Source: Bacteroidota bacterium (lineage in GTDB: Bacteria; Bacteroidota; Bacteroidia; Bacteroidales; F082). From it: 39,194 nt of DNA. Position 1 is the first letter of the stretch. Each line of letters starts with the position of its first letter. Location of the stretch: contig QMPA01000006.1 of the NCBI GenBank assembly GCA_003650365.1, positions 1-39,194 on the forward strand, read 5' to 3'. Of the stretch, positions 1,031 through 36,670 are shown piece by piece. The notes under the pieces were generated by a model, which was not told where the DNA came from, searched no databases, and saw only the letters and a list, made by a program, of their open reading frames with translations. Position numbers and translations under genes: made by a program.

Positions 1031-1064
1031 TTTGTGACAAACACCATTTTTCATACTAATTTTG
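1031..1064 (+). promoter_or_regulatory. Bacteroidota-type promoter (TTTG -33, TAATTTTG -7)
   Basis: TTTG at 1031-1034 and TAATTTTG at 1057-1064 match the TTTG / TAnnTTTG consensus of the Bacteroidota primary sigma factor, with a 22-base spacer. The ATG of the secreted protein gene follows 30 bases downstream. Confidence 0.6.
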
Positions 1065-1094
1065 CACTCCGAAAACCATAAAACACAATTACAA

Positions 1095-4000
1095 ATGAAA
1101 AAATTCAAAATTTTACTTCTAGTTTTTACCCTTGGATTTGTTACTTTTAGTGTCAATTGGGCAGTTAGTGATTCAACACCAACAGAGCGCGAGCGCCGAA
1201 GTAAAGTAATAGGCTGGGTTGATAATAATGCTTATTGGAAACGGATGGCCGATCAGGGCCTTGCCGTTCTTAATCCTGATGTTAGGGTTCCTGAAGTTAT
1301 TTTTACCGGCAGCCAGATTAAGGCAACAACAGTAATAACCGATGACTCTCCCGATGTACCTGTGATTGATGTTGGAAGCAGTACACAAAGCGAAAACTCA
1401 GTTTTTGTTGATCCCAACAATCCTGATGTCATGCTAAATTCTAATAATTCTACTTCCGTAACAGGTCCTCCATCCTACGGGGCAAATAATTTATATACCT
1501 TCGATTTTGCAGAAACATTTGAAGGTAGCAAATTTGGTACAAACGGTAACAACAGCGGTGACCCAACTACAGCTATCGGAACTGACGGACGTTGGTATGT
1601 GGGTTATATCAACAATGGAGGAATGGGAGTGTCTTATTCTGACAACCAGGGAGAATCCTGGATACGCAAACAATCGGGGCCAAATCCCGGCGGGTCGGGT
1701 GCAGATAAAAACCACCTCTGGATAGACACTAAAGAAGGTGGTACATACGAAAACAGGGTTTACAATGCCTGGTCCGATTTTGGCGGTTCTTATAATAACC
1801 AAATTGTAGCAACCTACTCTGCCGATAATGGCGAAACATGGGAAAGCAGACAGCGTATCAGCCTTGGTGTCGCTGCAGGAAACCACAACCAGGGTGTAAA
1901 TCTGAGCACCGGCCCCAATGGTGAAGTTTATGCCGTTTGGGCAATTTACGATGCTTGGCCTCAGGATGAAAAATCACTCGGTTTTGCAAAATCTTTAGAT
2001 GGCGGCGAAACATGGGAAGATTCTTATCGCATCATCAATAACATACGTGGCATCCGGCAAAGTGGTGTGCCACAAAATATGCGGGTAAACAGTTTTCCTG
2101 CCATGGCCGTCGATGTAAGTGGAGGTAGTAAAAATGGAACCATTTATGTTGTTTGGACCAATGTGGGAGTACCGGGTGAAAATTCTGGTAGCGACCGTGA
2201 TATTTATCTTATCAAATCTGATGATGGAGGGGACAGTTGGTCAGAAGAACCTATCAGAATAAATCAAGATCCCATCGGGCAGGGAAAAGCACATTATATG
2301 CCATGGATTGCTTGCGATCCTACAAATGGAACGGTGAGTGTAGTTTGGTACGACAACCGCAATACAAGTAATACTCAAGCCGAAGCTTGGGTAGCAACTT
2401 CTAACGATGGCGGCGAAACATGGGAAGACTTTAAAGTAAGCGATGTAGCTTTTACACCATCACCTATCCCAGGAATGGCCACTGGATATTTTGGCGATTA
2501 TCTCGGAATTACCGCCCTCAACGGCAAAGTTTATCCTTGTTGGACTGACAACCGCTCGGGCCATGCCATGACCTATGTTTCTCCTTTTGTAACTATTTCT
2601 GTAACAAATCCTTTTAACCTGCAAGCCAGTGTTGATCAGGAAACAGGTGCTTGCGACTTAAGCTGGAATTTCAATGAAGGATCAGGATTTATGAATTTCA
2701 GGATTTATCGCGATGACGTTATGATTGCCGAAACTGAAGCACTGACTTATACCGACCAAATTCCTGAGTTTGGTTACTATACTTATAAAGTTACTGCTTA
2801 TTACGGTGGTACAACCGAGTCATCGGCAACTGTTAAAGAAACCCAATGGGGTTCATCAACAATGGAGGTCATCCCAGGTGAATACACCGCTAATTTACTC
2901 ATCGATGATTCTGTTACCCAAATAATGAAAATAAAAAATACCGGTGTCCTCGATCTTGATTTTTCTGTTTCACCGTTCTTCATTCCTATCAATACAATAA
3001 ATTATAAAGCCGCCAATGGTGGAGGTGATGAATTTATCAGTAGAGTTATACTAGCTGGCATTAACAACACTTCCGGCTTCGAAAATTACAGTGATTATTC
3101 CAATGACTTTGCCCAAATGCAAGCTGGGGAATCCTACCAAATTCAGGTATTCAATGGCAATGCTTACAATGGTGATCAATGTGCTGTTTGGGTTGACTGG
3201 AATGCCAATGGTGAATTTGAGGAACAAGCAATCGTGCTTCAAGCTGATGAAACTTCGCAGGTATTTACAGGATCAATAACTCCGCCTGAAGGTAGTGTTC
3301 AGGGAACAGTTTTAATACGTATACGGCTTGCCGGTCCGGGAAATATGTCGGCCTATGGCGAAACACAATATGGTGAAGTAGAAGATTATTCCATCTTGAT
3401 TGCTTCCTGGTTGACACTCGATCCGGACGAAGGTACTGTAGCCGCAGGCGATTCATTGCTAATCGATCTTAAATTTAATGCCACTGGGCTTGAAACAGGA
3501 ACTTATAGCGATATCATTAAATTTGTTTCCAACGATTTAGACAATCCTTTCTACAGTATTCCTGTGACATTAAACATTACCGACCTTGCCGTTGTTGCTA
3601 CTGCCGAACCAACTGATATTTGCCTGGGATCAAGTGCACAGCTCAGTGCAAATCCACAAGGGGGTTCAGGAACTTATACTTATGCATGGAGTTCTATTCC
3701 CGAAGGTTTTTCTTCCGATGAACAAAATCCAATTGTCGAACCAATTGAAAACACAAAATACTTTGTTGCTGTAAATGATGGCATACTAAGCATGACTGAT
3801 TCAACGGAAGTTGCAGTTCATGCGCTGCCCATTGCCGATCTTGGTGAAGACCTGGTATTGTGTGGCGAAACACAACACTTTATGGATGCAGGAAATCCAG
3901 GGGCAACTTACCTATGGTCAAGCGGTCATACAACACAAACTGTTGTGGTTGTGGGTGAAGGTGAAAACCAATATTGGGTATTAATTACCAACGAAAATAA

Positions 4001-4550
4001 TTGCACTGATAGCGACACTGTTAATATTAATTTCGCTACAATTCCACTGGTTGATCTGGGTGTTGATACTGTCATATGCCAGGATCAGACTTATACTATT
4101 GATGCCGGAAATCCCGGAGCAAGCTATTTGTGGTCCACCGGAGAAACAACGCAAACTATCATTGTCGATACATCTAAATATAACTTTGGACTTCATACTT
4201 TCTCCGTCCAGGTTACCAGCCAATATCTTTGTGAAAGTGGTGATGAAGTTTCCATCGATATTAAAGACTGTACAGGTATTGACGAATATGACAGGGTAGT
4301 TTCCCTTGGCCTGTTTCCGAATCCAACTTCTGGTGTTTTTGAACTGGAACTGGAAAGCGACAGAAACCAGAAAATCAACATTATTGTAATGTCAATTTCG
4401 GGCAGCCTGGTTTATGAAAAAACCGATATTGTAATTAATGGCTTCTATTCTCAACAGATTGATCTTTCTGCATTTACTTCAGGAATTTATACTGTTTTTA
4501 TTGTTGGGGATAGTTATATTGAAAATAAAAAAATTGTTCTAAATAATTAG
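1095..4550 (+). CDS. Giant secreted Asp-box (BNR) beta-propeller protein with T9SS sorting domain
   Basis: The start is taken at ATG 1095, which directly opens a signal peptide (MKKFKILLLVFTLGF); an in-frame TTG at 1062 lies on the promoter and is rejected. The product has 1151 residues. Residues ~100-500 form a sialidase-like propeller with five Asp-boxes (near 183, 243, 300, 375 and 436, such as SADNGETW and SNDGGETW). An Fn3-like domain follows (~505-590), then a GEVED-type domain (~640-770, DWNANGEFEE and GEVEDY), a beta-sandwich, three Ig-like modules (~829-1057) and a type A T9SS sorting domain (~1072-1151, FPNPTSGVFEL). The sialidase FRIP motif was not found, so glycan cleavage is not supported. 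It should be exported by the T9SS and attached to or released from the surface. A paralogue follows directly at 4745. Confidence 0.85.
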   Translation: MKKFKILLLVFTLGFVTFSVNWAVSDSTPTERERRSKVIGWVDNNAYWKRMADQGLAVLNPDVRVPEVIFTGSQIKATTVITDDSPDVPVIDVGSSTQSENSVFVDPNNPDVMLNSNNSTSVTGPPSYGANNLYTFDFAETFEGSKFGTNGNNSGDPTTAIGTDGRWYVGYINNGGMGVSYSDNQGESWIRKQSGPNPGGSGADKNHLWIDTKEGGTYENRVYNAWSDFGGSYNNQIVATYSADNGETWESRQRISLGVAAGNHNQGVNLSTGPNGEVYAVWAIYDAWPQDEKSLGFAKSLDGGETWEDSYRIINNIRGIRQSGVPQNMRVNSFPAMAVDVSGGSKNGTIYVVWTNVGVPGENSGSDRDIYLIKSDDGGDSWSEEPIRINQDPIGQGKAHYMPWIACDPTNGTVSVVWYDNRNTSNTQAEAWVATSNDGGETWEDFKVSDVAFTPSPIPGMATGYFGDYLGITALNGKVYPCWTDNRSGHAMTYVSPFVTISVTNPFNLQASVDQETGACDLSWNFNEGSGFMNFRIYRDDVMIAETEALTYTDQIPEFGYYTYKVTAYYGGTTESSATVKETQWGSSTMEVIPGEYTANLLIDDSVTQIMKIKNTGVLDLDFSVSPFFIPINTINYKAANGGGDEFISRVILAGINNTSGFENYSDYSNDFAQMQAGESYQIQVFNGNAYNGDQCAVWVDWNANGEFEEQAIVLQADETSQVFTGSITPPEGSVQGTVLIRIRLAGPGNMSAYGETQYGEVEDYSILIASWLTLDPDEGTVAAGDSLLIDLKFNATGLETGTYSDIIKFVSNDLDNPFYSIPVTLNITDLAVVATAEPTDICLGSSAQLSANPQGGSGTYTYAWSSIPEGFSSDEQNPIVEPIENTKYFVAVNDGILSMTDSTEVAVHALPIADLGEDLVLCGETQHFMDAGNPGATYLWSSGHTTQTVVVVGEGENQYWVLITNENNCTDSDTVNINFATIPLVDLGVDTVICQDQTYTIDAGNPGASYLWSTGETTQTIIVDTSKYNFGLHTFSVQVTSQYLCESGDEVSIDIKDCTGIDEYDRVVSLGLFPNPTSGVFELELESDRNQKINIIVMSISGSLVYEKTDIVINGFYSQQIDLSAFTSGIYTVFIVGDSYIENKKIVLNN
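3828..4265 (+). repeat. Duplicated ~72-residue Ig-like module inside the first giant secreted protein
   Basis: Residues ~912-982 and ~984-1057 repeat one module with the shared core DAGNPGA-YLWS-G-TTQT, preceded by LG-D---C. The neighbouring paralogue has only one copy of this module, near 7474-7700, so copy number differs between the two genes. Confidence 0.8.
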
Positions 4551-4558
4551 CGAAAAGA

Positions 4559-4593
4559 ATATGGATGTGAGAAAATCACGTCCATATTTTTTT
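4559..4593 (+). terminator. Rho-independent terminator
   Basis: A 12-bp stem (ATATGGATGTGA with TCACGTCCATAT, one G-T pair) has a 5-base loop and is followed by a run of T. It begins 8 bases after the stop of the first giant secreted protein gene. Confidence 0.85.
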
Positions 4594-4696
4594 GTATCAG
4601 GCAACCAATACAAATATTTCTGTCTTAGGAATAAGCGCTAAATCCTAAGAAAATGTTAATCTAAAGTGCTTTACCAAGTTGTAAATAAATGTTTAC

Positions 4697-4704
4697 TATC
4701 TTGC
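4697..4704 (+). promoter_or_regulatory. Possible promoter -7 box
   Basis: TATCTTGC lies 40 bases before the ATG of the second giant secreted protein gene and resembles TAnnTTTG imperfectly. A TTG at 4679-4681 is closer than the usual -33 spacing. The upstream terminator means this gene needs its own promoter, but this box is only a candidate. Confidence 0.35.
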
Positions 4705-4744
4705 GGCGCAAAAATCCTGAATTATTCACAAATCATTAAATCAC

Positions 4745-7700
4745 ATGAAAAAATCTAAACTTTTTATTGTTCTTGTTTTACTGGGCACTTTTGCCATTGG
4801 TGTAAACTGGGCGATTAGTAATGGGAAAAAATCGGAGCGCGAAAAACGCAATTCGTTCAATACCAGTATTGATAACATCAACTACTGGGTTAAAGCTGCC
4901 GAAAAAGGGATCATCCCATTTAACCCGGAAATAAAAACCAAACCAGCGGTCTTTACCGGAAGTAATATTCGGGCATTCAGTACCATTACAGAAGACTCAC
5001 CCGATGTACCGGTTACCGAAATTAATTCGACACAAAGTGAAAACTCCATTTTTGTGGATCCCAATGATCCGAGTGTTGTACTGAATTCCAATAACTCAAC
5101 GCAAAACCCTGTTGGTCAATTATACGGTGCCAACGATTTCTTTTCTTTCGATGCAGCCGAAAGCTGGGAAGGAGAAGTTCAAGGTGCCGGTGGAAGCAAT
5201 AGTGGCGACCCCACAACAGCCATTGGCCTTAATGGCAGGTGGTATGTAAATTACATCGACAATCCAGGTGGAATGGGCTGCTCCTATTCTGACGACCAGG
5301 GAGCAAGTTGGACAACAGTGACCGTTGCCCCCAACCCGGGAGACCTTGCCGATAAAAACCATATGTGGATCGACAACAGCTCCACCAGTCCTTACGAAGG
5401 CTATCTTTACATTGCCTGGACAAATTTTGGTGGTGGCAATGACAGAGAAATCGCTATCGCATATTCTCACGATAATGGAGAAAGCTGGACGATTAACAAC
5501 AACATCAGTAGTGCAGTAAATGCAGGAAGTCACAACCAGGGTGTAAACCTGAGTACTGGTCCTAATGGGGAAGTTTATGCACATTGGGCCATTTACGATG
5601 GTTGGCCTTCTGACGAGTCAGCCATTGGTTTTGCCAGATCATTGGATGGTGGTGTCACCTGGGAACCAGCTACCAGAGCTGTCACAAATATTCGGGGTAT
5701 CCGTAATTCGGAGACTTCTAAACATATGCGCGAAAATTCATTTCCTGCTGCAACTGTTGATAACAGTAATGGCCCTGACAGGGGAAGTATTTATGTAACC
5801 TGGGCCAATATCGGCACACCTGGTATAAATACAGGAAATGACATGGATGTGTATATTTCAAAATCAACTGATGGTGGTGACACATGGTCTGATGCTATTC
5901 GTGTAAACCAGGATCCTGCCGGACTTGGAAAAGAGCATTATTTCCCATGGATTACCTGCGATCCGGCCAATGGAATTTTAAGTGCTATTTTCTATGACGA
6001 CCGCAATGTGAGCAGTTTAGACATTGAAGTTTATTGTGCCAACTCAGACGATGGTGGCGAAACCTGGGAAGATTTTAAAGTGAGTGATGTTTCAACTACA
6101 CCTTCTCCAATTCCCGGTTTAGCTAGTGATTACTTTGGTGACTACATCGGTATTATTGCACAAGATGGTTGGGTGTACCCAACATGGACAGACAACCGTT
6201 CGGGTTCAGCCATGACCTACGTTTCACCCTACCAAACCAATCCTCTAAATAAGCCTTCAGACTTAAATGCTATTGTTACATTTGAAACAGGTGCGGTTGA
6301 TTTAACATGGCTTTATGAGACCGGTGAAAATTTCCTGCACTTTAATGTCTATCGTGATGGTGAGTTTATTGCAGAAACAGCTGATGTTACGTATACTGAT
6401 CAGCTCCCTGATTATGGTGATTTTTCCTACCAGGTATCTGCATTCTACACCGAAGATATGGAATCAGGTGCAGTAAGTACTGCAGTACGATGGGGAGATC
6501 CACACATTAGTGTTTCTCCTACAAGCTTGTTCGAAAACCTGGTTATTAATACACAATCTACCCAATACCTTACAGTGATTAATACAGGCCAATTGGATCT
6601 TGATTATTCAATCTCTGCATTTGTTAACGAGAGCCGCTCAGTTTTGGATTACTGTACAGCCGGTTCTACCGAAGGAGATGAATACATTTCCCGGGTTCAG
6701 GTTGGAGACATTGATAATGAGACGGGCAGTAATTTTTATCAGGATTATACAAACTTGGTTACAAGTATGCGTACCGGCGAATCTTATCCCATCACTATTA
6801 CAAATGGAAACTCATACATCAAAGATTACTGTGGTGCATGGATTGACTGGGATGGAAACGGTGAATTTGACGAAGAGATGATTGAATTTTCCGGAAGCCC
6901 CGGACATGGCCCCTACACAGCCAATATATCACCACCTGTTGGTGCAAAAACAGGAATGACACGCATGCGCATTCGTATCAGGTACGATGGAGAGCTTTAC
7001 CCTTGTGAATATACACAATATGGGGAAGTAGAAGATTACGGCATTAATGTTCAGGGTTGGTTGGGTATTGAGCCAGTTAACGGCACAGTACTTCCCGGTG
7101 ATACAAGTATGATTGCTGTAAATTTTGATGCAACAGATATGGAAGCCGGTACATACAATGCCACAGCACAATTCTCTTCTAACGACCCGGATGCAAATGA
7201 GGTTGACGTTGAAATTCAGCTAAATATTAGCCAAATTCTGGCAACGGTATCTGCCGATAAAGAAGCTATTTGTATTGGAGACAGTGTACAAATGAGTACT
7301 AGCATTGCTGGATCATCTGATACTTTGATTTATTCATGGTATTCTGTTCCTGAAGGATTTACTGGTGATAAAGATGAGGTTAAGGCCTATCCCGAAATAT
7401 CTACCTGGTATTATGTGAATGTTTCAGATACAAGTGAGCATTCTTCAATCGATTCTGTTTTTGTTGAAGTTTACGCCCAACCTGTTATTGCACTCGGTGC
7501 CGATACCAGTATTTGTGGTGTAAATACCTGGACATTGGATGCGGGCAATCCGGGTTCAACTTATTTGTGGTCAACCGATGAAACGACTCAAACAATCGAA
7601 ATCAGTACAGATGGCGTTTATGAAATCATTGAATATATGGTTACTGTTACCAACGAGAATGCATGTAGCAGTACAGCCGGTATTGTTATTGAATGGGTAG

Positions 7701-7981
7701 ATTGTACCAGTATTGACGAATTAAGCAGCAATGTTTCGCTCAGCATTTTCCCCAATCCTAACAACGGTGAATTTAGTTTAAAACTTAACGCACTAAAGGA
7801 TGAAATTGTAAGTGTTACTGTTGTAAACGAATTGGGTGCAATAGTGTACACCAAAGAAGACATTAGCATACGCGAAGTGCTTACTTTGAAAATAAATCTG
7901 CAAGAAAAAGCAGCAGGTATTTACTCTATTGTAGTACGTTCCGACAATGGAATGATTAACAAAAAGGTTGTTGTAAAATAA
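4745..7981 (+). CDS. Giant secreted Asp-box (BNR) protein with T9SS sorting domain, paralogue of the upstream gene
   Basis: This 1078-residue protein is clearly related to the preceding one along its whole length: both carry VNWA-S after the signal peptide, then FTGS-I, DSPDVPV, TQSENS-FVDPN-P and LNSNNST. It has a signal peptide (~1-20), a propeller at ~100-500 with Asp-boxes such as SHDNGESW, STDGGDTW and SDDGGETW, an Fn3-like domain, a GEVED-type domain (DWDGNGEFDE, GEVEDY), a beta-sandwich, two Ig-like modules and a type A T9SS sorting domain (FPNPNNGEFSL). It has one Ig-like module fewer than its neighbour. No FRIP motif is visible. The pair arose by tandem duplication, and each copy has its own terminator. 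A role in adhesion or polymer binding is possible, but the substrate is unknown. Confidence 0.85.
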   Translation: MKKSKLFIVLVLLGTFAIGVNWAISNGKKSEREKRNSFNTSIDNINYWVKAAEKGIIPFNPEIKTKPAVFTGSNIRAFSTITEDSPDVPVTEINSTQSENSIFVDPNDPSVVLNSNNSTQNPVGQLYGANDFFSFDAAESWEGEVQGAGGSNSGDPTTAIGLNGRWYVNYIDNPGGMGCSYSDDQGASWTTVTVAPNPGDLADKNHMWIDNSSTSPYEGYLYIAWTNFGGGNDREIAIAYSHDNGESWTINNNISSAVNAGSHNQGVNLSTGPNGEVYAHWAIYDGWPSDESAIGFARSLDGGVTWEPATRAVTNIRGIRNSETSKHMRENSFPAATVDNSNGPDRGSIYVTWANIGTPGINTGNDMDVYISKSTDGGDTWSDAIRVNQDPAGLGKEHYFPWITCDPANGILSAIFYDDRNVSSLDIEVYCANSDDGGETWEDFKVSDVSTTPSPIPGLASDYFGDYIGIIAQDGWVYPTWTDNRSGSAMTYVSPYQTNPLNKPSDLNAIVTFETGAVDLTWLYETGENFLHFNVYRDGEFIAETADVTYTDQLPDYGDFSYQVSAFYTEDMESGAVSTAVRWGDPHISVSPTSLFENLVINTQSTQYLTVINTGQLDLDYSISAFVNESRSVLDYCTAGSTEGDEYISRVQVGDIDNETGSNFYQDYTNLVTSMRTGESYPITITNGNSYIKDYCGAWIDWDGNGEFDEEMIEFSGSPGHGPYTANISPPVGAKTGMTRMRIRIRYDGELYPCEYTQYGEVEDYGINVQGWLGIEPVNGTVLPGDTSMIAVNFDATDMEAGTYNATAQFSSNDPDANEVDVEIQLNISQILATVSADKEAICIGDSVQMSTSIAGSSDTLIYSWYSVPEGFTGDKDEVKAYPEISTWYYVNVSDTSEHSSIDSVFVEVYAQPVIALGADTSICGVNTWTLDAGNPGSTYLWSTDETTQTIEISTDGVYEIIEYMVTVTNENACSSTAGIVIEWVDCTSIDELSSNVSLSIFPNPNNGEFSLKLNALKDEIVSVTVVNELGAIVYTKEDISIREVLTLKINLQEKAAGIYSIVVRSDNGMINKKVVVK

Positions 7982-8002
7982 ACTTTTTCTATCAAAAATA
8001 AT

Positions 8003-8046
8003 AATCCCCCAGGCTGATTATCACAATTGGTCGGGGGATTTTTTTT
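8003..8046 (+). terminator. Rho-independent terminator
   Basis: An 8-bp stem, AATCCCCC (8003-8010) with GGGGGATT (8033-8040), encloses a 22-base loop and is followed by TTTTTT. It lies 22 bases after the stop of the second giant secreted protein gene. Confidence 0.8.
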
Positions 8047-8150
8047 GGTTGAGAAAAGTGAAATACAGCATAAACGAGAACATATCTAGATATGTTAATT
8101 TATAATAGTTCTAATTAAGACCATTGGTTACTAAAAGCTTCACAAATAGT

Positions 8151-8158
8151 TAATTTTG
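8151..8158 (+). promoter_or_regulatory. Promoter -7 box TAATTTTG
   Basis: This is an exact TAnnTTTG match 40 bases upstream of the ATG at 8199, and it is identical to the -7 box of the first giant secreted protein gene. A TTG at 8124-8126 is a weak -33 candidate with a slightly long spacer (24 bases). Confidence 0.5.
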
Positions 8159-8198
8159 TCGCGAAAATTTAATTTTTTAATCAAAAAAATAGAATGCT

Positions 8199-9710
8199 AT
8201 GAAAAAATTTACTCTTACCCTTTTTGCAGCCTTTGCTTTCTTTAGCCTTTTTGCACAGATGGACAGGGAGTTGGTATTGGTTGAAATGGGCACAGGTACA
8301 GGATGCCCGTATTGTCCTGCTGCTGCTACTGGCCTTGATGATCTTTATGCCAATGGTGATCCGGTTGCAGGTGTTGAATATCATTCCTACAATGCAGGAG
8401 ATCCTTTCAACACTCCGGAAGCTGCGCAACGTAATTCTTATTACAGCATCACCGGTTATCCTACCACATGGTTCGATGGTTCTTACTCCAAGCATATAGG
8501 TGGAGGTGCTTCTGGCAGCCTGTACACAACCTTTAAACCAAAGGTAGATGCAAGGATGAATGTTCAGACTGCATTTAAAATTGAGATTTTCGGGACAAAC
8601 ATTGGTGACAACTATACCATCACAGTCAGGATGAAAAAAGTATCTGCATATTCAGGTACCAACCTCAAACTGCGTTTTGCCTTAACAGAATCTGAAATTC
8701 CTTATAGCTGGCAGACCTTAACAAAAATTGACCATACCGAAAGGTTAATGGTTCCCGGTGCCAACGGAACACCCATCACCTTCAGTATGGTTGGTGCCGA
8801 AATTGAGGAAGAACTTTTGTTTACCTTCAATAATTCCTGGGATGAAGAACATTGTGAAGTAATCGCCTGGATACAGGATGATGGCAACAAAGAAGTAATG
8901 CATTGTGATGGTGTAATGCTTTTAGATCTGGAAGGACCCGAACCAACTTTCCTGGCAGATTTTCATGCTGATAATACTGATTTGTGCGAGCCCGGACTGG
9001 TACATTTTTTCGAGGACTGCATTGGAGACCCAAATTCATTTAAATGGACTTTTGAAGGCGGTAACTGCCAAAACCCATACGACCCCAACCCAAGTGTTTA
9101 TTATCCCACAGAGGGAAGTTTTGATGTTACTTTAATCATTTCTGATGGTGTTGAAAAAGATACAGCCATCAAAGCAAAATACATCACCGATCACGGATAT
9201 CCAGAAGTTACCTTTTCTGCAGTAGAACCTTTGTGTAACGAAGACTGGGATCCTTATACCTTGACAACAGGTGAACCTGAAGGTGGAGAATATACCGGTG
9301 ATTATGTTAGCGATGGTATGTATTTTCATCCAACAGAATCTGGTGTTGGTGATTTTAGTGTTACTTATTCTTACACCGACGAATTTGGTTGCGGTGCTTC
9401 TGATGGGCAAACAGTTACAGTTGTAAACTGTGTTGGTGTAGGCGAAAATGCTGAAAATACTACACTCAACATTTATCCTAACCCAAGTAAAGGAATATTC
9501 AACCTTGATATCAGTTCTGAAAAATTAAACAATGCCGACCTGAAAGTAATTGACGCCCTCGGGAAAGTTGTTTATGAACAACAAGGAATAAATATTCAGG
9601 GATCATACAAAAGTAGTATCGACCTATCAAACAATCCACAAGGCATTTATTTTGTGATTGTTTCTGGTGATGACTACCGTTCTGTGAAGAAAGTATTCTT
9701 ACAGAAATAA
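8199..9710 (+). CDS. Secreted Omp28-related thioredoxin-fold protein with PKD domain and T9SS sorting domain
   Basis: The 503-residue product has a signal peptide (MKKFTLTLFAAFAFFSLFA, ~1-19). A thioredoxin-like domain follows, with CPYC at residues 36-39 just after a beta strand (LVLVEMGTGTG) and a candidate cis-proline loop in ITGYPTTWFDG near residue 90. This arrangement matches Omp28-related outer-membrane proteins of Bacteroidota. A PKD-like domain lies at ~255-330 (FKWTFEGGNCQNPYDPNPS), and a type A T9SS sorting domain at ~425-503 begins with YPNPSKGIFNL. The redox-active-looking motif suggests thiol-disulfide exchange on secreted or surface proteins, but activity is inferred. The gene has its own promoter box and a strong terminator, and follows two other T9SS cargo genes. 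Confidence 0.8.
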   Translation: MKKFTLTLFAAFAFFSLFAQMDRELVLVEMGTGTGCPYCPAAATGLDDLYANGDPVAGVEYHSYNAGDPFNTPEAAQRNSYYSITGYPTTWFDGSYSKHIGGGASGSLYTTFKPKVDARMNVQTAFKIEIFGTNIGDNYTITVRMKKVSAYSGTNLKLRFALTESEIPYSWQTLTKIDHTERLMVPGANGTPITFSMVGAEIEEELLFTFNNSWDEEHCEVIAWIQDDGNKEVMHCDGVMLLDLEGPEPTFLADFHADNTDLCEPGLVHFFEDCIGDPNSFKWTFEGGNCQNPYDPNPSVYYPTEGSFDVTLIISDGVEKDTAIKAKYITDHGYPEVTFSAVEPLCNEDWDPYTLTTGEPEGGEYTGDYVSDGMYFHPTESGVGDFSVTYSYTDEFGCGASDGQTVTVVNCVGVGENAENTTLNIYPNPSKGIFNLDISSEKLNNADLKVIDALGKVVYEQQGINIQGSYKSSIDLSNNPQGIYFVIVSGDDYRSVKKVFLQK

Positions 9711-11246: not shown

Positions 11247-12824
11247 CTATTTGTTTACAATAAATCGTTGTTCGCTAATTGTTCCATTAACATCTGCCCT
11301 GATAAAATAGACTCCCCCTTTGAGTTTTGCAGTTTTCAAACCAAGGGTATTTGTACCATTCTGTAGATTCAATTGCTGACTTATAAGCTTTCTTCCTTGG
11401 AGATCAAATACATCAATTTCAGCCATGAGATAAGCAGTAGCTTCAATATTCAGATATATCAAATCTGTAGCCGGATTTGGATAAGGAATACCTAAAAAAT
11501 TATCTTTTGCAAAACTTATATCAGGATCAATACCATCAATGTTTCCCGGGATCAGAATAATTTCAACATCTACAACATCCGGCTCGTCAATGGTTACTTC
11601 AACTCTTCTTTTTTCTTGCGTTAGCCCAGTAACTTCCGGATAAAGCCAATACGTACCCAAAGCAACATTTGGAAAAACAAAAGATCCATCTACGTCAGAA
11701 TAATGGCTAACAAGTGTTTGATTTTCAGTGTCAGTCACATAAATATCGATACCCTGGGCCGGAAGATCATAATCCCCTCCTTCAGAAATTTCAATATACT
11801 TCACGTTTCCGCTAATATTCCCATTTCCTGAGTTAATTCCTGCTCCATCAACAAAATTAACATGATACCCCCAATAAGTATGATTGTTCTCAATTTGAAT
11901 CGCTTCTTCCCAAAAAATAACATCCCCATAATAAGTTGGCATCATTTCTCCATATAAATCAGAAGACTTTGTCGGTTGAACTTTTATATAATATTTTCCT
12001 GAAGGCACCTGGTAAAAGCTAAAATAACCCAGGGGGTCAGTCATAATGGTATCAACCGGAATTACGTTTTGATTGGTATCGATATAGTACAAATAAGAAA
12101 TACAGTTGTTGGCAGGAAATACTGCGTAAGCATGTCCTCCCATATCAAAAAACGATCTGTCGGCGATGTAAACAACCCGCAACATTGTATTTGTTTGTTC
12201 AATACCTTCAATTACTGCTGTTGTAGTAAGCCTTACTTTGTACATACCTGGACCGGGAAATGTGTGGTCAGGGTTCTGGAGATCTGATGTTGTCCTATCT
12301 CCAAAACTCCAATGCCAGCTTATAATTTCATCATTTTTCGTTTGGTCAATAAAACGAAAGCGATTGAGGTCGCCAGTCATTTTTTGTTCATATTTAAAAC
12401 GTGATTGCAGTAAATCAGCTTGAATTGGCATGAATATATCGAAATTTGTAATAAAGATATTGCTGTTGGCATAAGAAACAAATCGATAATACTTTAGCGT
12501 GTCAACTACAACATCAAAAAAGTCATTTGTATAAACCAAAAGAGAACCTTTTGAAGTTTTTGTTGGGATGGTATCGTAATAAAAACCTTCATCATCGGTT
12601 ACCACTTCAGTTAATAGTGGTCCCGAATCAATTGTTACCGTTGAGTCCTTCAAAAAATAAACAGTATGATTTTTAACAACATTTCCATATTCACTATTGG
12701 TAATCTGCCCCGAAATTATAATGTAATTATCTGTTATCTGTGCTACCAGATTTAGCTGTAAAAATCCGATACTTATCAGTACCCACACAGTTTTCATTAA
12801 AGTTGAGAATATATATGTTTTCAT
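11247..12824 (-). CDS. T9SS-exported PKD / regulatory-like beta-sandwich protein, third gene of sigma factor operon
   Basis: The 525-residue product has an N-terminal signal sequence (hydrophobic ~12-28, ending LVAQ) from ATG 12824; ATG 12797 is an alternative that leaves a more compact signal peptide. A carboxypeptidase-regulatory/Cna-B-like domain at ~36-110 is followed by a PKD domain at ~150-215 (WHWSFGDRTTSDLQNPDHTF). Two more beta-sandwich segments lie at ~228-330 and ~336-422 (DVDGSFVFPNVALGTYWL). A T9SS type A sorting domain at ~446-525 begins with YPNPATDLIYL. No catalytic domain is seen. The gene starts 14 bases after the preceding stop, so it is probably co-transcribed with the ECF sigma factor and its membrane partner. 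It may be the surface output or sensor component of that system. Confidence 0.82.
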   Translation of the reverse strand: MKTYIFSTLMKTVWVLISIGFLQLNLVAQITDNYIIISGQITNSEYGNVVKNHTVYFLKDSTVTIDSGPLLTEVVTDDEGFYYDTIPTKTSKGSLLVYTNDFFDVVVDTLKYYRFVSYANSNIFITNFDIFMPIQADLLQSRFKYEQKMTGDLNRFRFIDQTKNDEIISWHWSFGDRTTSDLQNPDHTFPGPGMYKVRLTTTAVIEGIEQTNTMLRVVYIADRSFFDMGGHAYAVFPANNCISYLYYIDTNQNVIPVDTIMTDPLGYFSFYQVPSGKYYIKVQPTKSSDLYGEMMPTYYGDVIFWEEAIQIENNHTYWGYHVNFVDGAGINSGNGNISGNVKYIEISEGGDYDLPAQGIDIYVTDTENQTLVSHYSDVDGSFVFPNVALGTYWLYPEVTGLTQEKRRVEVTIDEPDVVDVEIILIPGNIDGIDPDISFAKDNFLGIPYPNPATDLIYLNIEATAYLMAEIDVFDLQGRKLISQQLNLQNGTNTLGLKTAKLKGGVYFIRADVNGTISEQRFIVNK

Positions 12825-12838
12825 AATACTTTTTTTTT

Positions 12839-14188
12839 CTACTCATTTAATTTGTAAACCAGTCCAAAGCGCAAGCCCAAACCTGACAATGCTGTTTTGT
12901 AGTTGCTCTCTTTGTAAACGGGCTTAAAATAATAACGATAATTGGGCTCGAATGCCAAAGAAAGCCTTTGCCCAATTCTAAAATCGATGCCTGCACCAAC
13001 CCATAATTGCAAGGAATAGTCAACGCGTTGCGGCAAATTATTTTCTAAATCTATAATTTTAATGTGCTCAATACTTGACTTTGGATCTTCAATTTGCTTG
13101 CTTATAGAAATATTCATAGCAGGACCAGTATAAAAATACCATTTAAACTTATCGGTACTGTTATGGTAACCAAACATTAGAGGTATTTGCAAAAAGTAGT
13201 ATTCATTGGTTACTTCTGAAATTACAAAATGCCTGACTGAATCCCAGATTTCAACTTCCTGGGTGTGATAAATCCGATGAAGTTCGTTATCGATGGTTTC
13301 AAATGTTACATAAAGAACACTGTCGTAGGAGCCTAAATAATCATTACTTGTATAATCTACTTCCGCAAAACCGCGGTCGCGAACATAAGAAATACCAGCC
13401 CCGAAACGCATAAACCAATGCTTGTTAAAATACCAGGATGGCTCTATGTTTAAGGAATAAGTATTCATTATCGTTACTGAATCGAAATTATTCAGTATAA
13501 TTTCAGGAGTAAAATACAAACCAATATTCCAATAGTTTTTAAAATGCTTTATTCCACTTTCGCTTGCAATAGAAGCTTCAGTAGCAGCACTTTCTCCCTT
13601 TTTCAGGTAAGCGAAAATATCATTATTAATTTCAGAAAATTCGTTTTTCGTGTCGGATAATTGAACTGACGAATAGCTTTTGCTATCAAGATGAGACAAA
13701 GCGTATAAGCTGCCATCATTCCCATCAATTGATTTTAGCTGGTCTTTTGCATTGTTTGGATGGTTGTTTTCCACTACTGTACCACTTGAAATATTTTTTG
13801 CGCCATTATTATCAGCAACGATTTCATTGTCAAGGTCGTCAATAGTTGGTTCAACAGCAGGTTTTATTTCAGTTTGCATTTCCTGACTTCCTTGTTCTTC
13901 CGGATAAACAATGCTTTCTGATTCCAATTGCTCAGCTTCATTTAGTGTTTCAATTTCACCAATTTGATCCATTTCACTGACCGGGAAAACATACCAAAAT
14001 ACCAGTGCTAAAAAAACGAGTACAGCAGCTGCAATAAACTGTTTGGCATATTGGAAAACAAAAACCGGCTTTTCTTGATCTGCAAGACCCTGCTCAATTC
14101 CTGTCCACACATGCCCAGGAGGCGTCGGCTGGAACTGCTCAAATTTGTCCCTGACCAGTTGATCGATGTGTGTTTGATTATTATCCAT
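12839..14188 (-). CDS. Putative dual membrane-spanning anti-sigma factor with outer-membrane beta-barrel
   Basis: The start is taken at ATG 14188 (449 residues); a GTG at 14197 is an alternative. Residues ~5-40 form a short cytoplasmic segment with PTPPGHVWTGIEQGL, a pattern found at the N-termini of Bacteroidota proteins encoded beside ECF sigma genes. One hydrophobic helix follows at ~50-68 (FIAAAVLVFLALVFWYVF), then ~145 acidic, Asn/Ser-rich, probably disordered residues. A C-terminal PorT-like barrel occupies ~218-449 (YWNIGLYFTPE, FGAGISYV, YYFLQIPLMFGY, FEPNYRYYF). The order matches the dual membrane-spanning anti-sigma (Dma) class described in Bacteroides thetaiotaomicron. It overlaps the sigma gene by 8 bases, implying translational coupling. 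Sigma binding is inferred, not shown. Confidence 0.8.
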   Translation of the reverse strand: MDNNQTHIDQLVRDKFEQFQPTPPGHVWTGIEQGLADQEKPVFVFQYAKQFIAAAVLVFLALVFWYVFPVSEMDQIGEIETLNEAEQLESESIVYPEEQGSQEMQTEIKPAVEPTIDDLDNEIVADNNGAKNISSGTVVENNHPNNAKDQLKSIDGNDGSLYALSHLDSKSYSSVQLSDTKNEFSEINNDIFAYLKKGESAATEASIASESGIKHFKNYWNIGLYFTPEIILNNFDSVTIMNTYSLNIEPSWYFNKHWFMRFGAGISYVRDRGFAEVDYTSNDYLGSYDSVLYVTFETIDNELHRIYHTQEVEIWDSVRHFVISEVTNEYYFLQIPLMFGYHNSTDKFKWYFYTGPAMNISISKQIEDPKSSIEHIKIIDLENNLPQRVDYSLQLWVGAGIDFRIGQRLSLAFEPNYRYYFKPVYKESNYKTALSGLGLRFGLVYKLNE

Positions 14189-14729
14189 TGTTGTCACTGT
14201 CCTTTATTGACTTTATTCTTCTTCTAAGCGTTAAACGGGCCCTTGAAAGTTGCGATTTAGAAGTGCTTTCTGAAATGTCCAACATCTCTCCTATTTCTTT
14301 GTGTGAAAACCCTTCAATCACATTCAGGTTAAAAACGGTTCTGTAACCTTCCGGTAATTCCCTGATTAATTTTAACAACTCATCGGCCGACATTTTTTCG
14401 ATAACAAAGGTTTTTCTATCGGTACTGGGTTTTAAATATTCCAGGTCAACTTTTATCCCTCGTTTAATGCGTTTTTTGTAGAAATTAATTGCTGTATTTA
14501 CAATTGTTTTCCTCACCCAACCTTCAATCGAACCTTCACCTCTAAAACCTTTTAGGTGTGTAAATACCCTAATAAACCCTTCCTGTAAAATGTCATCTGC
14601 ATCGGCACGATTTGTCGAAAACCGAATACACACACCATACATTTTAGGTGCAAGAGCCTGATAAAAAAGTTCTTGTGCTTTTTTATCTTTTCCCTTTAGC
14701 TTTTTTATGAACGACTTGTTAAAGTCCAT
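14181..14729 (-). CDS. ECF-type RNA polymerase sigma-70 factor
   Basis: The 182-residue protein has a region 2 domain (~10-85, with DADDILQEGFIRVFTHLKGF and GWVRKTIVNTAINFYKK) and a region 4 helix-turn-helix (~120-172, LPEGYRTVFNLNVIEGFSHKEIGEMLDISESTSKSQLSRAR). There is no long region 1 or 3, as expected for the extracytoplasmic function group. It is the first gene of a probable three-gene operon: its end overlaps the anti-sigma/barrel gene by 8 bases, and a T9SS cargo gene follows. It should direct RNA polymerase to envelope-related promoters when released by its membrane partner. The regulon cannot be read from this window. An inverted repeat sits just before the start codon. Confidence 0.93.
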   Translation of the reverse strand: MDFNKSFIKKLKGKDKKAQELFYQALAPKMYGVCIRFSTNRADADDILQEGFIRVFTHLKGFRGEGSIEGWVRKTIVNTAINFYKKRIKRGIKVDLEYLKPSTDRKTFVIEKMSADELLKLIRELPEGYRTVFNLNVIEGFSHKEIGEMLDISESTSKSQLSRARLTLRRRIKSIKDSDNNG

Positions 14730-14774: not shown

Positions 14775-14914
14775 GCAATGTACAAAATAACCTTTAAAGT
14801 ATTAGGGATGACAACAGGTGATGGTAAAAGGTTGCATTAAAACCAATTAAACTTCAAGGAAATAAAATAAATAATTGCGATTGCGACAATTAAATTGAAG
14901 GGAAAAGGAATGGG

Positions 14915-16075: not shown

Positions 16076-16741
16076 TCAAAGCACAATCATTTTTAAAATG
16101 ATTTGCCCCACACCTTCAGTATTTTTCCCGTCAACAACAACACGCATAAAATAAGTTCCGGATGGCATAAAAAATAGGGGGAAGGTCTCTTGTTGAAAAC
16201 GACCAACTTTCTTTTCAACTTGAAAAGGAGCTACAACTTCATGGCCATTTATGTTAAAAATATATAAAGTTAAGTTTCTTGCATTGATGTTTACTGCCCA
16301 GTCGATTGAGACACTTATCTTTCTGTTTATCACTGGATTTGGAGCTATTTGGACAATTATTCCCTTATTTGGGGGCGTTTTTGTAAAAAAGTTGGATATG
16401 GCCGACCAATCACTAACTTTCCCGTTTTTATAAATCACACGGGTAATCCAATAATACCACCTGTCAGCTATCAGGTTCATTTCTATTGCAGTGGTGTCGC
16501 CGCTAGTTTTGCGTTGGCGAGTATCTCCCGGACAGGTCTCAAAACATGCCCGATTGTTACTCATTACATATTCATAATCTATTGCCCCAGGCTCTTCTGA
16601 CCACTTGATAACAAAAGAGTTAGCGGCAGTCCCTGCTATACCATCCGTACCACTCACCGGATATAGATGCGTTTGAGTCATCAACTGTTCAGCCAACAAA
16701 ACAACAAAAAGTAACACCAATATCTTTCCTCTAAAAACCAT
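16076..16741 (-). CDS. Small secreted protein with Fn3-like domain and T9SS sorting domain
   Basis: The start is set at ATG 16741 (MVFRGKILVLLFVVLLAEQL), giving 221 residues and a clean signal peptide; the longer frame begins with an unconvincing TTG at 16759. After the signal peptide comes one Fn3-like domain (~25-115; IVKW-type strand FVIKWSEEPGAIDYEYVMS, then WYYWITRVIYKNGKVSDWS). A type A T9SS sorting domain follows at ~125-221 (IAPNPVINRKISVSI, LYIFNINGHEV, MPSGTYFMRV). It contains four internal cysteines, including the pair in ACFETCPGD, which might form a disulfide. It is divergent from the glycogen synthase-like gene. Function is unknown; it is among the simplest possible T9SS cargoes. 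Confidence 0.75.
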   Translation of the reverse strand: MVFRGKILVLLFVVLLAEQLMTQTHLYPVSGTDGIAGTAANSFVIKWSEEPGAIDYEYVMSNNRACFETCPGDTRQRKTSGDTTAIEMNLIADRWYYWITRVIYKNGKVSDWSAISNFFTKTPPNKGIIVQIAPNPVINRKISVSIDWAVNINARNLTLYIFNINGHEVVAPFQVEKKVGRFQQETFPLFFMPSGTYFMRVVVDGKNTEGVGQIILKMIVL

Positions 16742-16910
16742 TGTTTTGCTCAAAATCAATCTTGTATTTAGTCGTTAAATAAAAGGTATCCTTACATTTT
16801 TCTCAGATAGAATTACAAAAAAATAGCAAATCAAATTTAGCCATCTCGCTGTGGGGCTTATTGCTAAGCGGTTTTGTGTCTGTTACTTACTCAAGTAGTC
16901 CATTTTTTAC

Positions 16911-33095: not shown

Positions 33096-33944
33096 TTAAT
33101 ATTCCCAAAGGTTATTTTCAAATTGAAAGAGACTTTTTTTAATTCTATCAGATTCCAACAATGCATCTACACCAGCGGCATATTGAGAAATTCTACGATC
33201 AAAAACATTTTCTTCTTTGTAAATATAGCTGTCAAACAATCGTTTCCAGAACACTTCATCATAGGTTAATCGTGCAGCCGAATTATATCTATTAAATACA
33301 TATGACTTTGCAAAAACGTTTCTTGCTTCCGGATAATATAACCAGAATAAAGGTTCGGTAATCTCTTCTCCGTTACGTTCTTTGATCATCACCGGACATA
33401 TTGCCTGAATACGTACCATCATTTGCGAACGCTGGCTATCAAAATACCAGTCCTCCTTAATTCTTAAACGCATCACTTTTGTTGGATCAAATTCAGTATA
33501 AATTACTGTATCGTATTCTTCATAAGGAGGCGTTGACCTTCTCATAATTTTTGGTAATGAATCTGTTTGTCGACCAACAACATCATTATAAGTAATCGGC
33601 ACAAGTAATTCATCGGTATTGGAGATGTCGTAAGCCTGCATTTCCCCTTCCTTGAGTGCATCCAGAACAGTTATAATAAATGATTTCCAGTTGGCTTGCG
33701 TTTCAATCGGAAAATAAAACTTCTGGTTAAATTTCTGTCTGAAGTCAACCTCTCTCCAGATTCTCTTCGACCACATAACATCAGCTTCCCGGATAATGGG
33801 TAACGGAACTGGTGTCCGCTCCACGTCCATCTGGTCGGTTGTATTATACAATCCATCAACTGGCCCTTCATCTACAATTTGCGATTTTGCATTAAAAGCA
33901 AACAACAACAAAAATGTCAGCGACACAAGAATTAACTTTTTCAT
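33096..33944 (-). CDS. gldN: T9SS ring protein GldN/PorN
   Basis: The 282-residue protein has a signal peptide (MKKLILVSLTFLLLFAFNAKSQ) and the conserved GldN body: PLPIIREADVMWSKRIWREVDFRQKFNQKFYFP, read here by its core VMWSKRIWREVD, then VMRLRIKEDWYFD, IQAICPVM and LFWLYYPEAR. PorN/GldN partners with the lipoprotein GldK/PorK to form large periplasmic rings beneath the outer membrane. It is the last gene of porP-gldK-gldL-gldM-gldN, 17 bases after gldM, and is followed by a terminator. The length is normal for PorN. Confidence 0.96.
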   Translation of the reverse strand: MKKLILVSLTFLLLFAFNAKSQIVDEGPVDGLYNTTDQMDVERTPVPLPIIREADVMWSKRIWREVDFRQKFNQKFYFPIETQANWKSFIITVLDALKEGEMQAYDISNTDELLVPITYNDVVGRQTDSLPKIMRRSTPPYEEYDTVIYTEFDPTKVMRLRIKEDWYFDSQRSQMMVRIQAICPVMIKERNGEEITEPLFWLYYPEARNVFAKSYVFNRYNSAARLTYDEVFWKRLFDSYIYKEENVFDRRISQYAAGVDALLESDRIKKSLFQFENNLWEY

Positions 33945-33961
33945 GCTAATATTTTTTAGAT

Positions 33962-35617
33962 TTATCTAATTTCAAGGTTAATTGGGTTCAGCACCCTGGT
34001 AGTTCCATCAGGTCCTTTTGCTTGAATATTCTCAAAAAAGAACTTTTGCTTTCTTTTTCCGCTTTTAATAATACTGTTTATTTCACCAGTAAATCTGTTT
34101 CCACGGACGTTCTTCGGCAACCAGTCACCATTTACGATGGTAGCAAATGTGTATGAAGTAACTTCAAAATAAAGGTCAAATTCAAAATCTTTCATATTTG
34201 GAATAATCGCTGCTGCTGCAAGCAAAGTATTTTTATCCATTTGACCACCAGTTTGGCCGGCAATTTCAGCAGTTGGATCAGGTACACGTTTAATCCTGAA
34301 CTCTTTTTTACCAAGTGAAAGGTCTTTGTCACCAACCTTTGCACTAGCACTGATATAGACTTTACTTACTCCTTTAGGCTTTTTGTTGATCCGAACAACC
34401 CAGTCTCCATCTTTGCCTTTTTTAAGTGTTCCCACATCAATTGAGGACTTAATACTTTCATCTGCCAATCCAGGAGATGAGATAGCTACGGGATTATCAA
34501 CGCCAATGTAGAATACGTTCATTTTCAGTGGGGCAACAATTAATGCTGGTGGTGCGACAATATATCCTCCAGAAAAAGGATAACTTACTGTTTGATTTGT
34601 CGCAGGGTCAATCATTTCAATCTGACCAGCATATTTTTGTGGTCCTTCTTTATTTGCAGGAAATTCCAATTTAACAACGCCCGCTTCTCCGGTGATTAAT
34701 TTGGCACGACCAATATTTTTATCTGTTAATTTATCGGCACCATTTAATACACGCACATCTGGTTTACTTTTTGAATCGAAAGCAGCAACAAGAATTTCAG
34801 CTTCGTATTTTTCACCTTTTAGTACGTATGTACTTCTTGGGATAACTCTTGCTGAAACGTTATCAAATTTATAGTCTTTCTCAGAAACAGAACCATACAG
34901 ATAGTTAATCGCATTGTACTCAGCAGATTTTACTTCTCCAATAATTTTATTTAATATTGTAACATCAGCTGCAAGAATAGTGCGGTAAAAATTATGTTGC
35001 TCCCAATTTTGCTTCTGACCATCAGCATCTCTGTAGGTATGCCCCTCTTCATTAGTAAACAAACCAATCTTTGTATCAGTTTCAGGAAGGTTCATTGTGG
35101 TTAAAACTGTCCCACGGAAACTTTTCATACGCGCGCTCAATTCATAAGCTTCACCTTTATTATTAGGTCGTACAAGATAGTTTGTTGTTGCATTGTATTT
35201 ATCCTTGGTTTCAACCTCCGACAACATCAACATACTTGCAGGTTTGCCATTTATAATTGTATCTTTATAAAACAGCGCTTTAACTTCTGCATCTGTTTTT
35301 CGTTCCGATACTTTTACCAATTCAAATTTTAACTGATCAATGTAGGCAATCAAATCGTTTGATTGTGTTCTGATAGTTTGCGCTTTCTGCCAATAAGGTT
35401 CAACCTTGTCTTTGTTCATTTTGTACTGTTGATCGAACTTGGCATACCTTCCTTCAATTCTTGCTGAAAGGCTTTCGTTGGTACTTTCCATAGATTCGTT
35501 TACAACAAGGAAAGCTTCAAGTATTTCTTTAGAAACGTTCAATGCGAGCAGTGCCGTTAGTACAAGGTACATCATGGCGATCATTTTCTGTCGCGGGGTT
35601 TCTTTATATCCGGCCAT
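33962..35617 (-). CDS. gldM: T9SS motor stator protein GldM/PorM
   Basis: The 551-residue protein starts MAGYKETPRQKMIAMMYLVL: one N-terminal membrane helix (~12-28) preceded by Arg9, then ALNVSKEILEAFLVVNESM and a long periplasmic region of four successive domains. GldM pairs with GldL in the inner membrane, and the complex converts proton-motive force into movement that drives secretion or gliding. The periplasmic arm reaches the GldK/GldN rings. The protein is slightly longer than the ~515-residue homologues. It lies 51 bases after gldL and 17 bases before gldN, indicating one transcript. The conserved tail GTTRVLNPINLEIR is present. Confidence 0.97.
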   Translation of the reverse strand: MAGYKETPRQKMIAMMYLVLTALLALNVSKEILEAFLVVNESMESTNESLSARIEGRYAKFDQQYKMNKDKVEPYWQKAQTIRTQSNDLIAYIDQLKFELVKVSERKTDAEVKALFYKDTIINGKPASMLMLSEVETKDKYNATTNYLVRPNNKGEAYELSARMKSFRGTVLTTMNLPETDTKIGLFTNEEGHTYRDADGQKQNWEQHNFYRTILAADVTILNKIIGEVKSAEYNAINYLYGSVSEKDYKFDNVSARVIPRSTYVLKGEKYEAEILVAAFDSKSKPDVRVLNGADKLTDKNIGRAKLITGEAGVVKLEFPANKEGPQKYAGQIEMIDPATNQTVSYPFSGGYIVAPPALIVAPLKMNVFYIGVDNPVAISSPGLADESIKSSIDVGTLKKGKDGDWVVRINKKPKGVSKVYISASAKVGDKDLSLGKKEFRIKRVPDPTAEIAGQTGGQMDKNTLLAAAAIIPNMKDFEFDLYFEVTSYTFATIVNGDWLPKNVRGNRFTGEINSIIKSGKRKQKFFFENIQAKGPDGTTRVLNPINLEIR

Positions 35618-35668
35618 TTTTTTATCGTTTTAGTTTATGGAATAATTTGATAAATCAAAAAATCTGAA

Positions 35669-36670
35669 TTAGCCATTAATATTCATGGCTGTAAGCATGT
35701 TGCCATAAACTTTGTTCAACGATGTCATACGGTTTGTTAAGGTGGCCATTTGATCTGTAAACTCTGTTGTTGAAGCTGTTGAAGCCTCAAGCCTGTCAAG
35801 GAATGCTCCCATTGCTGCTGGTAATTTATCAGTCGATTCAACGGCTTTATTGGTTCCTTGTAATTGAATTTCGTAAATAGTATTTAGAGCAGCCAGATTT
35901 TCTGAAATCCTGCGTAATTGCTCATTATAAGCATCGCCTTCTACAGCTGTAAAATCAAGGGCAGCAACCGATTTACTCAATATTTCAGAAGATTTGGCAT
36001 AACTTTCAGCAAGACTATTTGCTGAGGAAGTTGCCTCCTTTACTGAACTTGAAAACTCTTCAGTAGTATCCAAATCAGATTTTAAAATATCAGCAGCCTC
36101 AAGATAAGCATTTGACAATGATTTGGCGCCATCAGCAACATTTGAAAGGCTTTCGCCATAGCTACTAGTAGCGTCAAGGTCTTTTGATACAATATCACCA
36201 AATTCTTTTGCTGAAACGGCAGCAGTTTGCAGATTACTGGTAAAGTCGTTGGTGGCAGTAGCAGCATCAGACAAATCAGCTAGTTTTACAACATTATCTG
36301 ACATTTTTTCCAGTCCGTCACCTAACCTGCCAATGGTCTCGTTATCAATCTGCGCTTTTTCGAGCATTTCGTCAAGGCGTTGAGTAGGTGATTTTCTTTC
36401 GTTTAAGTCAGTTCCTTTTACACCATGATACATACCACCAAGTTCAGGATAAACCAAACTCCAATCAGGTTCAACGTGGGGTGGCTCCCATGCAGAGAAG
36501 AAGAAAATAAATGCTTCGGTACCTAAACCAATAATCAGCATAATGTCGGCACCTGGATAGTGGTTAATTTTAAACAACGCACCAATCAATACTACTGATG
36601 CACCCAGACCATATACTTTGGCCATAAAATTTCTGTAACGTCTTGTTCTGGTAAAACTTAATAATGCCAT
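35669..36670 (-). CDS. gldL: T9SS motor protein GldL/PorL
   Basis: The 333-residue protein has two membrane helices, ~17-33 and ~43-60, in YGLGASVVLIGALFKINHYPG and IMLIIGLGTEAFIFFFSAWEPP (cores quoted). Glu52 in helix 2 corresponds to the conserved Glu needed for proton-driven rotation in GldL, and Lys34 and His37 flank the short periplasmic loop. The remaining ~270 residues form a long, Ser/Ala/Asp-rich, coiled-coil-like cytoplasmic domain. This makes it the long PorL type (~300 residues in Porphyromonas) rather than the ~215-residue flavobacterial form. It is encoded between gldK (34 bases) and gldM (51 bases). Confidence 0.96.
   Translation of the reverse strand: MALLSFTRTRRYRNFMAKVYGLGASVVLIGALFKINHYPGADIMLIIGLGTEAFIFFFSAWEPPHVEPDWSLVYPELGGMYHGVKGTDLNERKSPTQRLDEMLEKAQIDNETIGRLGDGLEKMSDNVVKLADLSDAATATNDFTSNLQTAAVSAKEFGDIVSKDLDATSSYGESLSNVADGAKSLSNAYLEAADILKSDLDTTEEFSSSVKEATSSANSLAESYAKSSEILSKSVAALDFTAVEGDAYNEQLRRISENLAALNTIYEIQLQGTNKAVESTDKLPAAMGAFLDRLEASTASTTEFTDQMATLTNRMTSLNKVYGNMLTAMNING

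Follow-up and report, generated by a model that had tools for sequence, protein, structure and literature searches.

A Dma-type sigma/anti-sigma operon with a dedicated type IX secretion cargo in Bacteroidales: a candidate surface-reading switch

Introduction

What is a gene for a surface protein of the type IX secretion system (T9SS) doing directly behind the genes of a sigma factor and a putative anti-sigma factor? The question is raised by three genes on the minus strand of contig QMPA01000006.1 (GenBank assembly GCA_003650365.1; Bacteroidota bacterium, GTDB order Bacteroidales, family F082), of which positions 1 to 39,194 were analysed (the window). The genes encode an extracytoplasmic function (ECF) sigma factor, a protein of the dual membrane-spanning anti-sigma (Dma) type that ends in an outer-membrane barrel, and a T9SS cargo. 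An earlier note, made from the letters of the window alone, took the third gene to be a dedicated exported partner of the other two. The reading favoured here, with moderate confidence, is a Dma-type trans-envelope sigma/anti-sigma pair in which an extracellular hairpin of the barrel docks its own T9SS cargo, encoded in an autoregulated operon. The new element is a Dma operon variant with a dedicated T9SS surface cargo.

Organization of the operon and architecture of the Dma-type protein

An open reading frame (ORF) check of the minus strand returned the three ORFs at the coordinates given in the earlier note. The sigma and barrel genes overlap by 17 bases with a GTG start at 14197 and by 8 bases with an ATG start at 14188, and the cargo gene follows after 14 bases. 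This arrangement of an overlapping pair followed by a T9SS cargo gene was confirmed by the ORFs, Pfam, TIGR02937 and AlphaFold. The ECF-type sigma gene adjoins the Dma gene, and its product is probably the cognate partner of the Dma protein.

The AlphaFold model of the Dma protein contains N-terminal helices at residues 5-17 and 25-39 and a further helix at 45-67. Residues ~68-218 are modelled without structure, mostly at very low confidence, so that the linker measures about 150 residues. The cytoplasmic segment, single membrane helix, disordered linker (previously put at about 145 residues) and barrel that had been read from the letters are therefore borne out in the model. Fold matches of the barrel among solved structures of the PDB are mostly bacterial outer-membrane barrels. 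Strands 3 and 4 of the barrel are extended into a long hairpin (~56 residues), which the strand order and the cytoplasmic N-terminus would place outside the cell. Assignment to the Dma class is by architecture and sigma adjacency, judged against the description of the Bacteroides thetaiotaomicron Dma proteins in the available portions of PMC13088901; the N-terminal segment, single membrane helix, long disordered tether and C-terminal barrel of that definition are all present in the model. A membrane-helix-like stretch near the N-terminus was found in 94 of 103 Dma proteins from nonredundant complete trios (drawn from 134).

Conservation of the trio in relatives

Genes for proteins with a T9SS C-terminal sorting domain (CTD) are common, with four others among ten window proteins scanned, and a lone adjacency is therefore weak evidence. 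Within the family, 60 Dma loci were surveyed, which are the stronger matches and not all (31 ortholog-type and 29 paralog-type). The cargo gene directly follows Dma in 59 of them, 58 by BLAST and one (L072, where the Dma gene is broken) by profile; the sole locus without a called cargo (L080) runs off its contig. The sigma gene is directly upstream of Dma in 55 loci, and the other five are at or nearly at a contig end. Paralogous trios retain every part. The survey of the order comprised 69 loci, 29 fetched automatically and 40 selected from the match list. Here the cargo follows Dma in 54 loci, recognised in 46 by its core (domains c1 and c2) and in 8, where the stretch ends early, by the N-terminal or PKD profile alone. 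The Dma proteins of the 15 loci without cargo are among the more divergent (Dma-profile E 2e-31 to 2e-16, against 5e-105 to 1e-26 for cargo-bearing loci, the weakest of which overlap with them). A sample of 296 genomes drawn from the phylum gave E 5.6e-27 as its best Dma match outside the window's own genome, and no cargo core was seen in 29 loci fetched from it with flanks of ~1500 bases.

A search starting from the cargo gave a similar picture. Of the family's 93 strong cargo cores, 79 have a Dma gene upstream of them on the strand and contig that they occupy, 12 sit at the end of a contig or come directly after a gene that does, and two are true orphans. A separate set of 79 named cargo loci divides into 57 linked to Dma, 11 touching a contig edge and 11 unlinked, the last including loci labelled Flavobacteriales, Saprospiraceae, Chitinophaga and Bacteroidales. 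The cargo family is therefore wider than the trio, yet almost all of its members in the window's family are wired to Dma.

Cargo genes away from any Dma are what would be seen if gene order had been conserved without functional contact, but the trio's persistence in many of the order's families, as well as in paralogs, makes that explanation very improbable. On these comparisons the trio is no chance neighbourhood, and its retention in relatives speaks for a surface protein that takes part in the switch and does not merely adjoin it. Of the interpretation in the earlier note, which is partly supported overall, the conserved exported partner is the strongly supported portion, its possible part as ligand, sensor tip or output and its possible tie to T9SS export status being candidate roles; the conservation of the T9SS gene beside the pair, whose absence would have counted against it, was looked for in relatives and found.

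In seven named Dma-linked loci (L204, L215, L216, L220, L224, L234 and L255) the cargo is followed by a second sigma gene, and six contigs of the order search carry two Dma matches with ~3.6 to 3.8 kb between them; these arrangements look like tandem trios. Three loci outside the order (L277, L289 and L292) encode a Dma-like protein of ~250 residues, apparently without a barrel, followed by a separate barrel-like exported protein, which by reading is perhaps a split version of Dma.

Constant base and variable head of the cargo

The cargo ends in a CTD in all 103 nonredundant complete trios (in-house profile or pattern), and PF18962 is present in all 40 aligned cargos of about the length of the window's cargo. 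Domains c1 and c2 are universal in the trios by construction, because the core served as the trio definition. Cargo length ranges from 322 to 1208 residues, the three shortest cargos consisting, by reading, of a signal peptide, c1, c2 and the CTD alone; the median spacing between Dma and cargo genes is 12 bases. The AlphaFold model of the window's cargo is a row of beta-strand domains, for which the fold search returned multi-domain beta proteins at low TM-scores. Residues 2-24 are modelled as a helix that is hydrophobic by reading, a candidate signal peptide. The cargo is built of a constant base (c1-c2-CTD) and an exchangeable N-terminal head (PKD strings, beta-helix or none).

Conservation of the hairpin and its co-divergence with the cargo

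The hairpin was compared between 38 diverse Dma proteins from trios and 38 cargo-less Dma proteins; one trio cut by a contig end (L122) was left out. Hairpin conservation is 2.26 bits in the trio set, inside the range of the membrane strands (1.60-2.54 bits), versus 1.02 bits in the cargo-less set, where it is about that of the linker (1.01 bits) and the strands reach 1.66-2.24 bits. The N-terminal segment is conserved alike in the two sets (2.02 vs 2.03 bits). Without L141, L144 and L268, whose neighbour is an unrelated CTD gene, 35 rows remain and the hairpin values are 2.21 vs 1.07 bits. In the barrels of a second, STN-type architecture, described below, the hairpin reaches 2.69 bits (n=30) and exceeds seven of the eight strands. 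Conservation of the hairpin, predicted to be extracellular, is confined to cargo-linked barrels.

The hairpin also diverges together with the cargo, above all with c1. With sigma distance held, the partial correlation of distances is highest for hairpin and c1 (0.55, bootstrap 0.48-0.62), followed by 0.41 for strands and c1, 0.31 for hairpin and N-terminal cargo domain, 0.28 for hairpin and c2, 0.19 for N-terminal segment and c1, and 0.08 for hairpin and CTD. When the strands and the N-terminal segment are also held, the hairpin-c1 value is 0.45 and the hairpin-c2 value drops to 0.10. As a control, the N-terminal segment correlates with sigma at 0.50 and the hairpin at 0.29. The hairpin-c1 value exceeded all 300 partner shuffles within sigma groups.

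A second architecture with an STN barrel and FecR

Weaker cargo cores revealed operons that encode an ECF sigma factor, FecR, an STN-domain barrel and a related cargo of ~1000 residues with a beta-helix head. FecR is directly upstream of the STN barrel in 28 of 30 fetched loci. The unselected set comprises the 37 best-scoring of 43 STN barrels, the other six (genus g11 or contig pieces) having been chosen for a visible core; a cargo core is downstream in at least 31 of the 37, among the cores listed. Conversely, 37 of 50 weak cores listed sit behind an STN barrel; of the other 13, one was inspected (L174) and belongs to no such operon. The STN barrel occurs in 71 of 150 genomes and in none of the three genomes of the window's genus. 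The idea that genus g11 is without any such system was dropped, as it carries the STN/FecR version (L175). A closer relationship of STN barrels to the barrels of trios than to those of cargo-less Dma proteins was rejected (hhalign, 4.7e-22 vs 5.9e-23). The periplasmic linker of the STN barrels contains a repeated D-T motif with 2.95 bits (n=30), above the barrel strands (L172:2663-3964, residues 156-178).

The two architectures may represent a general Bacteroidales sensing module, in which a barrel hairpin reads its own T9SS surface protein and is wired to an ECF sigma factor via a Dma segment or via STN and FecR; this wider proposal is tentative, and we lean slightly to the doubtful side of it. 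The conservation and co-divergence of the hairpin could also be explained by a barrel that serves mainly as a surface anchor or assembly partner for the cargo, the sigma link just balancing amounts with no environmental signal, and the few exact promoter matches in the genome agree with that. Such a role is improbable, since the N-terminal segment is conserved to the same degree as in Dma proteins that lack a cargo and a second relay typical of signalling (STN and FecR) is used elsewhere.

Promoter and regulation

Regions upstream of sigma genes are strongly enriched in the pair TGCAACC-N16-TGTC compared with shuffles, and an exact match precedes the operon of the window; when one mismatch is allowed, the number of matches in the window is what chance would give (2 against 2.67 expected). 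A looser form (TGCAAC-N16-18-TGTC) has 61 distinct matches in 129 loci (1.23 Mb), against 4 for the reversed control. Of these, 47 lie no more than 250 bases from a sigma gene and two precede other cargo genes. A wider regulon did not emerge from the exact motif, which occurs at 2 places in the window's own genome, as does the reversed control; in two congeners it occurs 2 and 3 times versus 2 and 0 for the control. The pattern agrees with autoregulation of the operon and a small number of exact targets.

The promoter-like pair ahead of the operon, the two matches ahead of other cargo genes and the paucity of exact matches are also in line with a cargo that is output only: the sigma factor would activate its own operon, Dma would sense another input at the outer membrane, and a protective or adhesive product would be made in the form of the cargo. 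In the dma2 operon of B. thetaiotaomicron, which consists of a sigma gene, a Dma gene and a third gene, that third gene (bt_1557) is reported to rise by 6 log2 units on deletion of dma2 (PMC13088901). An output role alone leaves both the restriction of hairpin conservation to cargo-linked groups and the hairpin-c1 co-divergence unexplained, and we regard it as unlikely, though deserving of attention.

Proposed switch and its weighing

In the docking switch that we prefer, the N-terminal segment of Dma would hold the sigma factor, while the cargo would exit via the T9SS and remain near the surface, docking on the hairpin through c1. The gain or loss of docking might come from ligand binding, from cleavage or pulling, or from an export failure. 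A change in docking would alter the anti-sigma segment, so that sigma is freed or held; a repressing and an activating docked cargo are both allowed. Freed sigma would transcribe sigma, Dma and cargo from one promoter, and the loop would match the supply of cargo to the amount displayed or used at the surface.

Several observations weigh against this proposal. The co-divergence of hairpin and c1 does not amount to contact: distance pairs are non-independent, the strands-c1 correlation is also positive, and at sigma distances below 0.45 the hairpin-c1 value (0.30) is not above that of strands and c1 (0.34). All 300 shuffles were likewise exceeded when the strands were paired with c1, c2 or CTD and the N-terminal segment with c1 or c2, and the shuffle test therefore does not set the hairpin apart. 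A tree of 95 rows, itself poorly resolved, needs no more than five changes to account for the trio-type barrels, which form nearly one clade; the link between hairpin and cargo may therefore depend on some two lineages. The STN-type barrels match the barrels of cargo-less Dma proteins no less well than those of the trios. The two family orphans (L169 and L170) and the 11 unlinked named loci, one of them labelled Bacteroidales, have cargo without Dma. The promoter match is found in 36 of the 54 closest trio upstream regions, and in 21 of 46, 6 of 14 and 5 of 29 more distant ones.

If the hairpin does dock its own cargo, the extracellular input of the Dma anti-sigma class becomes testable, and the trio would be a second case, beside PorA, that ties a T9SS cargo to transcription. 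The exchangeable cargo heads would then hint at what is sensed.

T9SS context and feature coordinates

The T9SS machinery of the genome is encoded ~18 kb from the trio, where PorN, PorM, PorL, PorK and a PorP-family gene lie in a row (33096-39151). A role of the trio in T9SS housekeeping or general T9SS regulation was rejected, because a PorP-family match is present in 171 of 173 family genomes and the Dma family in 50 of 173 (single-protein search). The window contains four more T9SS type A cargo genes (1062-9710 and 16076-16759), one of them Omp28-related. The features of the operon are listed in Table 1.

Table 1. Features of the sigma/Dma/cargo operon in the window (aa, amino acids; pLDDT, AlphaFold confidence score)
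Feature	Position	Strand	Basis or remark
ECF-like promoter TGCAACC-N16-TGTC, 81 bases upstream of sigma gene	14810..14836	-	pair enriched upstream of sigma genes; exact match in window
ECF sigma factor, 182 aa	14181..14729	-	Pfam Sigma70_r2 and r4_2, TIGR02937
Dma-type anti-sigma/barrel protein, 449 aa from ATG at 14188	12839..14197	-	ORF; AlphaFold mean pLDDT 74.6, barrel mostly >90
N-terminal cytoplasmic two-helix segment (aa 5-39), presumed sigma-binding	14072..14176	-	AlphaFold; equally conserved in trio and cargo-less Dma
Inner-membrane helix (aa 45-67)	13988..14056	-	AlphaFold
Disordered periplasmic linker (aa 68-218)	13535..13987	-	pLDDT mostly about 40
Eight-strand outer-membrane barrel (aa 219-446)	12851..13534	-	AlphaFold; PDB fold matches including OmpW, OmpA, Ail
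Long conserved beta-hairpin, predicted extracellular (aa 273-328)	13205..13372	-	strands 264-299 and 302-344; conserved in both cargo-linked groups
T9SS type A cargo, 525 aa	11247..12824	-	PKD_4, CarboxypepD_reg, Por_Secre_tail; AlphaFold mean pLDDT 85
Cargo N-terminal domain (aa 30-137)	12414..12737	-	conserved in orthologs and most paralogs; seen in 69/103 trios
PKD region (aa 138-224)	12153..12413	-	Pfam; 0 to 9 copies among relatives
Cargo domain c1 (aa 226-335), candidate docking domain	11820..12149	-	best co-divergence with hairpin
Cargo domain c2 (aa 336-440), CarboxypepD_reg-like	11505..11819	-	Pfam
T9SS type A sorting domain (aa 448-523)	11256..11483	-	PF18962 E 5.1e-12; TIGR04183

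Comparison with known systems

The earlier note knew of no description of a three-part version. Since the three-gene dma2 operon has been described (PMC13088901), three genes as such are not new; the trio with a T9SS cargo stands without a description found. Neither this trio nor the FecR/STN version with a T9SS cargo was found in the literature by title and abstract, a scope outside which most subscription papers fall, and the available portions of PMC9723704 and PMC12045153 describe no such trio. The Dma literature, in the portions available, contains no statement of the input sensed.

Dma1 and Dma2 of B. thetaiotaomicron with their Das sigma factors (PMC13088901) resemble the pair of the window in the anti-sigma segment, membrane helix, disordered tether, C-terminal barrel and adjacent ECF sigma. 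The third gene of dma2 is annotated DUF4943 and, in the available portions of that paper, is not described as a T9SS cargo, whereas that of the window encodes one. The conserved, cargo-linked hairpin is a feature of the window's group, the B. thetaiotaomicron proteins being compared by their description.

PorA of Porphyromonas gingivalis, a CTD protein upstream of PorXY-SigP, resembles the proposed role of the cargo, as a CTD-bearing surface protein acting upstream of an ECF sigma factor (PMC7712824). It differs from the trio in that a sensor kinase and a response regulator are involved, T9SS genes are affected, and the system is reported in Porphyromonas only; no Dma barrel is mentioned in the portions of that paper available.

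Signalling by FecR and TonB-dependent transducers, such as the Fox system (PMC11637429), differs from the operon of the window, in whose three genes a Pfam scan gave no FecR or STN match. The STN/FecR relatives share with it, as far as the available account goes, the sigma factor, the FecR anti-sigma factor and a periplasmic signalling domain on the barrel, whereas a small barrel and a T9SS cargo replace the TonB-dependent receptor.

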